Shown: one piece after another, positions 16,374-35,937 of the stretch | How positions within the stretch are numbered: the first letter of the stretch is position 1 | How the letters are laid out: every line of letters begins with the position of its first letter | NCBI RefSeq assembly: GCF_014859525.1 | Contig: NZ_JACUUB010000008.1 | Span: 1-64,000 of the forward strand | Direction: 5' to 3' | Source: Marinobacter sp. | Lineage (GTDB): Bacteria; Pseudomonadota; Gammaproteobacteria; Pseudomonadales; Oleiphilaceae | DNA length: 64,000 nt | Program-made: the position numbers and the translations under genes | Notes under the pieces: generated by a model | The model's input: the letters and a program-made list of their open reading frames with translations, nothing else | What the model was told of the DNA's origin: nothing | The model's database searches: none

Positions 16374-16481
16374 GCGGCATCAGGGTCTTCTGTCCAAAAA
16401 CCGCTACGAGCACATCCATGTGCGCTTCTCTCAGGCCATCCCTGGCCTTCGAAATTTTTGGACAGAAGACCCTGATGCCGC
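16374..16481 (-). repeat. Structured intergenic element, copy A (108 bp; 27 bp perfect inverted arms, conserved core with two mini-palindromes)
   Basis: Arms GCGGCATCAGGGTCTTCTGTCCAAAAA (16374-16400) / reverse complement (16455-16481), 27/27. Core read on minus strand contains AGGCCAGGGATGGCCT and GCACATGGATGTGC; 52/54 identical to copy B core. Confidence 0.92.
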
Positions 16482-26045: not shown

Positions 26046-26071
26046 ATCAGAGCGTTTTCGTTCTACAAATA

Positions 26072-26103
26072 ACAGAAAAGCCGGCAAATGCCGGCTTTTC
26101 TGT
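26072..26103. terminator. Bidirectional terminator between nth and the chalcone-isomerase-like gene
   Basis: ACAGAAAAGCCGGCA-aa-TGCCGGCTTTTCTGT perfect 15 bp stem with A/T tracts. Confidence 0.88.
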
Positions 26104-26126
26104 GAACGCAGAGCTCTGTTGACACC

Positions 26127-33878: not shown

Positions 33879-33986
33879 GAGCACCGGGGCCCTTCTTTCC
33901 GGGAATGTCGAAGGCCAAGGATGGCCTGAGAGAAGCGCACATGGATGTGCTCGTAGCGGTTCCCGGAAAGAAGGACCCCGGTGCTC
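33879..33986 (+). repeat. Structured intergenic element, copy B (108 bp; 27 bp inverted arms, 26/27)
   Basis: GAGCACCGGGGCCCTTCTTTCCGGGAA (33879-33905) / TTCCCGGAAAGAAGGACCCCGGTGCTC (33960-33986); core has AGGCCAAGGATGGCCT (33912-33927) and GCACATGGATGTGC (33937-33950). Confidence 0.92.
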
Positions 33987-35824: not shown

Positions 35825-35937
35825 GAGCAGGTGGGGGATGACTTTCCGAAACTGTGCGGAGCCATGGATGGCGGAGCCCAAGCGTCACATGGATGTGCCG
35901 AAGGAGCGTGTTTCGGAAAGCCATCCCCCACCTGCTC
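35825..35937 (+). repeat. Structured intergenic element, copy C (113 bp; 28 bp inverted arms, 27/28; diverged core)
   Basis: GAGCAGGTGGGGGATGACTTTCCGAAAC (35825-35852) / GTTTCGGAAAGCCATCCCCCACCTGCTC (35910-35937); core has GCCATGGATGGC (35861-35872) and CACATGGATGTG (35886-35897). Confidence 0.88.

Follow-up and report, generated by a model that had tools for sequence, protein, structure and literature searches.

CsrB/CsrC and RsmX/Y/Z are each encoded by one dedicated gene and carry 5-20 or more sites. The consensus of CsrA/RsmA is 5'-(A/U)CANGGANG(U/A)-3', and the SELEX-derived sequence is RUACARGGAUGU (quoted in PMC6849547). TwoAYGGAY (Rfam RF01731), one feature of which is a tandem GA in a stem, was proposed to be a CsrA-sequestering RNA on the basis of its motif content (PMC4333381). 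In Rfam it belongs to clan CL00106, which also includes CsrC. We know of no test of the sequestration proposal. A search of the literature on palindromic repeats of Marinobacter found nothing relevant.

In the present study, we analyzed a stretch of 64,000 nucleotides from a Marinobacter genome (referred to below as the window; the genome is labelled G000), in which an earlier note had described a family of three structured elements. The coordinates given there were correct: copy A at 16374-16481 (108 bp), copy B at 33879-33986 (108 bp) and copy C at 35825-35937 (113 bp). So was the pairing of the outer arms, which, as read from the sequence, is 27/27 in A (5' arm on the GGA strand at 16455-16481, 3' arm at 16374-16400), 26/27 in B (33879-33905 with 33960-33986) and 27/28 in C (35825-35852 with 35910-35937). 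The GGA strand of A is, however, the minus strand, whereas B and C lie on the plus strand, and C has a core of another subtype (57 nt, with extra GGAs). Likewise, the identity of the A and B cores at 52/54 positions is found, but only after A is reverse-complemented. R1, a covariance model for which 31 copies were used, scored A, B and C at 115.1, 114.2 and 109.9 bits, respectively. The minimum free energies (MFE) corresponded to z scores of -10.8, -8.6 and -7.9 against dinucleotide shuffles, and none of 200 shuffles equalled them; the single-sequence MFE structure of C fails to show the two small hairpins together, and there they are supported by the alignment only. Copy A lies between two minus-strand genes in the same sense as these, and B (ftsB-ispD gap) and C (kdsA-eno gap) are antisense to the minus-strand genes on both sides. 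At 26055-26117, in the gap between two convergent genes, the window also contains a strong palindrome that includes runs of T and of A (CAGAAAAGCCGGCA...TGCCGGCTTTTCTG); it draws weak matches to Thr_leader and BSnc120 and is probably a bidirectional terminator.

Within an outer stem of 27-30 bp, each copy has two hairpins with the CANGGANG motif in their loops, which fit the CsrA/RsmA consensus in the form CANGGAYG. In B, sequence and fold give the hairpins AGGCC-AAGGAU-GGCCU (loop 1 at 33917-33922, plus strand, with a GA/GA internal loop beside it) and GCAC-AUGGAU-GUGC (loop 2 at 33941-33946). The loops of A, on the minus strand, are AGGGAU (16438-16443) and AUGGAU (16414-16419), both in columns conserved in alignment A3, and those of C, on the plus strand, are both AUGGAU (35864-35869 and 35889-35894). 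Among 101 distinct copies of a Marinobacter relative (G018), selected with the covariance model and without a regular-expression filter, the loop columns A-N-GGA-Y are 98-100% conserved with N free, and they fit both the consensus and the SELEX sequence. The distance between the two GGAs is 20-23 nt in 341/341 copies, although this set was selected by a regular expression requiring GG[AG] and its invariance is thus partly built in, unlike that of the 101 copies. A copy has a median of five GGAs on the GGA strand and about two on the other. The genome has one csrA gene, with a product close to that of E. coli, and in the Marinobacter genomes searched there was no match above the cut-off to the RsmZ, RsmY and CsrB models. 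Binding or sequestration of CsrA by the elements is, in our opinion, a well-supported guess.

The earlier note did not recognise the element as a named family, and at gathering thresholds Rfam indeed gave no match in the whole window; comparison at an E-value threshold nevertheless identified it as TwoAYGGAY-like. RF01731 matched A and C on the strand of the GGA loops with 32.4 and 30.0 bits, short of the gathering score of 43 bits; no RF01731 match was reported for B, which had a partial CsrC match (16 bits, E 0.49). Genome-wide there were seven matches to RF01731, two of them above 43 bits (C56:9833, 48.6 bits; C53:13993, 45.2 bits) and five below. The model had no match in 14 control genomes, and with stricter filters 18 of 274 gammaproteobacterial genomes had matches, several of them multi-copy. 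Two adjacent hairpins with AYGGAY loops are present, both strictly so in C, and in A and B with loop 1 as the relaxed form ANGGAY. The tandem GA is likewise found, since A and B read UC-GA-AGGCC...GGCCU-GA-GA, and in C the internal loop would be GGA/GGA instead of GA/GA, judging from the letters alone. Together, these model and motif comparisons show that the element is, as a putative RNA, homologous to TwoAYGGAY at the family level. A match of A to mir-4520 in the same database (41.7 bits, gathering score 90) was rejected as chance, a long perfect stem happening to share letters.

The covarying arms of the earlier note were borne out on a large set, in which the outer stems covary strongly and 98.1% of the cells are paired, compared with 66.0% in shuffles. 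The covariation score was 0.827 against 0.200, and none of 500 shuffles was as high; these figures come from an alignment fitted to the covariance model, which leans towards the structure, and with MAFFT alone double changes were seen in 32/37 pairs. In 348 elements, the imperfect pairs on the GGA strand comprise 182 G-U and 22 A-C (26:6 in G000, 35:4 in G018 and 121:12 elsewhere), and in the same set G-G outnumbers C-C by 30 to 1. Because both G-T and A-C counted as mismatches in the element finder, it cannot favour either. The excess of G-U is found whatever the direction of the neighbouring genes (sense, antisense, convergent and divergent settings, with ratios of 36:3, 27:7, 37:5 and 23:1 in the individual gene contexts), which indicates that the folded GGA strand is under selection; this strand asymmetry is the strongest evidence for selection on one folded strand. 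The asymmetry alone fits folded single-stranded DNA as well, and the CsrA-type loops favour RNA. Continuation of the outer stem into the flanks was also considered, but pairing between the two flanks of a copy was no better than after the flanks were swapped (4.09 vs 4.01), and an apparent TTTGG/CCAAA complement was therefore dropped. The explanation that we consider probable is a dispersed TwoAYGGAY-like RNA in which a long protective stem ends in two hairpins for CsrA/RsmA, spaced by 20-23 nt.

The family is much larger than the three copies first described. The search with the covariance model, as the earlier note had suggested, found further copies in this genome and in relatives, almost always intergenic. 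In G000 it gave 79 matches, or about 70 copies less about eight reverse-strand echoes of the palindrome, and BLAST with copy B gave 24 matches, of which two are self-matches of the palindrome. Marinobacter shengliensis has about 120 copies by the same model, and the counts elsewhere in the genus run from 3 to more than 90 per genome, with 3-12 in the low-copy genomes (G004, G011, G012, G016 and G020) and 57 to at least 97 in most others. Copies often lie at contig ends (C160, C5, C151 and C110 of G000; C1:1-59 and C3:1-59 of G018); thus, the palindromes seem to break assemblies, and the true copy numbers may be higher. Genes were called from codon usage by a simple script rather than by a standard annotator; they contain no copy in G000 and two in G018. 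Several Marinobacter-like elements were also seen in contigs titled as a Klebsiella pneumoniae metagenome-assembled genome (CAMDML01...; L222, L235, L246 and L272), a title that is probably a mislabel, and the only match to the two-hairpin pattern in the viral collection is on one viral-labelled contig (L317:11976-12016). Some copies are enlarged: their second hairpin has a common insert, which is about 80 nt long and itself forms two small hairpins, and the inner length is 133-138 instead of 54 (L018:1483-1674, L143:6623-6815, L227, L284, L309 and L312, and also L017 and L019). Copies L017-L019 were at first candidates for interruption by an insertion sequence, which was rejected in favour of this common enlarged hairpin. 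The B site holds the enlarged form in G018 and the compact form in G000.

High and variable copy numbers could also be those of a non-autonomous mobile element of the REP/BIME, MITE or IS200-like kind, which would move as a folded single strand and offer the hairpins to a transposase as substrate, and the earlier note had named REP/BIME-like spread as one possibility. Strand-specific folding and the short conserved motifs in the immediate flanks fit this, and so does the BIME-like arrangement of close neighbours (<400 bp), which are back to back in 43/43 cases, 44-195 bp apart with the GGA strands outward and never tandem or facing (for example, L178, L184, L039, L050 and L393). However, copy number is not linked to the Y1 (RAYT) transposase: nine genomes with 57-96 copies (G001, G005, G008, G009, G019 and G021-G024) have no match to PF01797, whereas G004 has 22 such matches and only 8 copies. 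The arms differ between copies, unlike terminal repeats, and the inverted repeats common to the copies of a MITE are missing; over the outer 18 arm positions, copies of one genome are mostly alike at 5-10/18, and at 15-16 at most. No copies share arms within G000 or within G018, and hence there is no sign of recent transposition there. Across the 64 kb of synteny with ten relatives, the only occupied sites are those of A, B and C; the A site is filled in 9/10 relatives in one orientation, and the B site in 8/31 genomes. At the ftsB-ispD site, which is empty in about 20 relatives, a target duplication that would mark an insertion is not clearly seen, and G001 and G019 may hold a decayed arm there. 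We therefore consider a mobile element unlikely. The orthologous sites, together with the lack of arm sharing, indicate an old family that, where examined, is passed on mostly by vertical descent: the majority of copies are inherited in fixed positions between genes and are not spreading at present.

The intergenic position, the frequent occurrence in convergent gaps and the very stable hairpin would also suit a cis-acting element at the 3' end of neighbouring transcripts (a stabiliser, terminator or processing signal) independent of CsrA. Orientation relative to the genes is near random, however, with the copy in the sense of the upstream gene in 29 cases against 27 in G000 and in 55 against 41 in G018, and there is no U-tract. 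Selection for the fold is strand-specific in antisense settings as well; thus, read-through from neighbouring genes cannot be the sole source of the RNA. Such an element would furthermore leave the invariant loops unexplained, and we regard it as quite improbable. For a TwoAYGGAY-like RNA, the flanks point to a unit that extends somewhat beyond the stem and may have its own transcription. In G000 and G018, about 80 nt of the 3' flank are rich in A and C and poor in T; CNCCAAA is frequent there, and GGCTAGG sometimes occurs, 15-21 nt past the arm. In the 5' flank, TATYNC (GACTATYNC) lies 10-29 nt upstream of the arm in 18/82 paired copies (for example, L050, L178 and L312); this motif is unlike the sigma70 -10 box, for which no enrichment was found upstream of the copies.

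The arms of orthologous copies change in concert. Between G000 and G018, two different species of Marinobacter, we found 47 same-orientation pairs with matched flanks, a few of which are cross-pairings within clusters; their arms range from identical to unlike, while the 500-bp flanks are about 87% identical. Compensated double changes comprise 102 transitions and 117 transversions, single changes 33 to or from G-U and 35 other mismatches, and flank substitutions 817 transitions and 620 transversions; in the 14 closest pairs there are 17 doubles and 12 singles. Compensation through G-U should favour transitions, and no such bias is seen in the double changes. Since doubles exceed singles and transversions are as many as transitions, much of the covariation resembles the outcome of one arm being copied onto the other in the DNA. 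The view of the earlier note that selection on the fold lies behind the fixed core and the variable paired arms is thus upheld by the strand asymmetry but covers only part of the covariation. A 2-bp indel is common to both arms in L335/L387. The core at the C site points one way in G000, G018, G002 and G022 and the opposite way in G005, G013 and G008, and core subtypes change at fixed sites. When template switching occurs between inverted repeats, the two outcomes on record are that the arms are homogenised and that the spacer is inverted (PMC8604942); template switching has also been proposed to maintain RNA hairpins (PMC8794818). From these patterns, template switching is the likely mechanism of the concerted change, although strong selection in large populations could yield double changes without it. 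The record of stem evolution in this family is unusually clear. That the elements are DNA-level palindromes kept perfect by template switching alone, a reading which the transversion-rich concerted changes, the common indel and the inverted cores would fit, is already disfavoured and very improbable, because strand-symmetric correction predicts G-U equal to A-C rather than the ratio observed. The 3' flank, T-poor and C-rich on the GGA strand, makes a C-to-T bias an unlikely source of that asymmetry.

In the TwoAYGGAY-like RNA that we propose, the GGA strand would be transcribed and CsrA would bind both loops, probably as one dimer bridging them; many such RNAs might then jointly titrate CsrA or serve as marks on the transcripts in which they occur. 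Two forces would keep the arms complementary: the folded GGA strand would be under purifying selection, and template switching during replication would copy one arm onto the other and occasionally invert the core. More tentatively, the elements may form a distributed CsrA sponge of 70 to more than 100 independently transcribed two-site RNAs, whose stems template switching would both keep perfect and renew. If this is true, scattered RNAs take on the role that belongs elsewhere to a few dedicated sponge RNAs. Marinobacter is a host with scores of natural copies of a proposed RNA family, in which the suspected link to CsrA is directly testable. Furthermore, the orthologous pairs, whose arms change fast and in concert and whose core is occasionally inverted, offer natural data on whether compensatory selection or template switching lies behind long RNA stems that are perfect and yet changing.

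Compared with CsrB/CsrC and RsmX/Y/Z, the elements likewise have several GGA motifs in hairpin loops and CsrA as the presumed ligand; however, they are short, numerous and dispersed, and each combines two main sites with a long outer stem. They resemble REP/BIME and RAYT-associated repeats in being intergenic, palindromic and present in many copies with inverted neighbouring pairs, but here the arms are variable, the core is conserved and there is no link to Y1. With TwoAYGGAY the elements share two hairpins with A-N-GGA-Y loops, the GA/GA internal loop beside hairpin 1 and a poorly conserved external stem, whereas the copy number in Marinobacter is far above any figure that we found stated for TwoAYGGAY. 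The family is thus a variant, in very many copies, of an RNA family already known as a candidate for CsrA binding.
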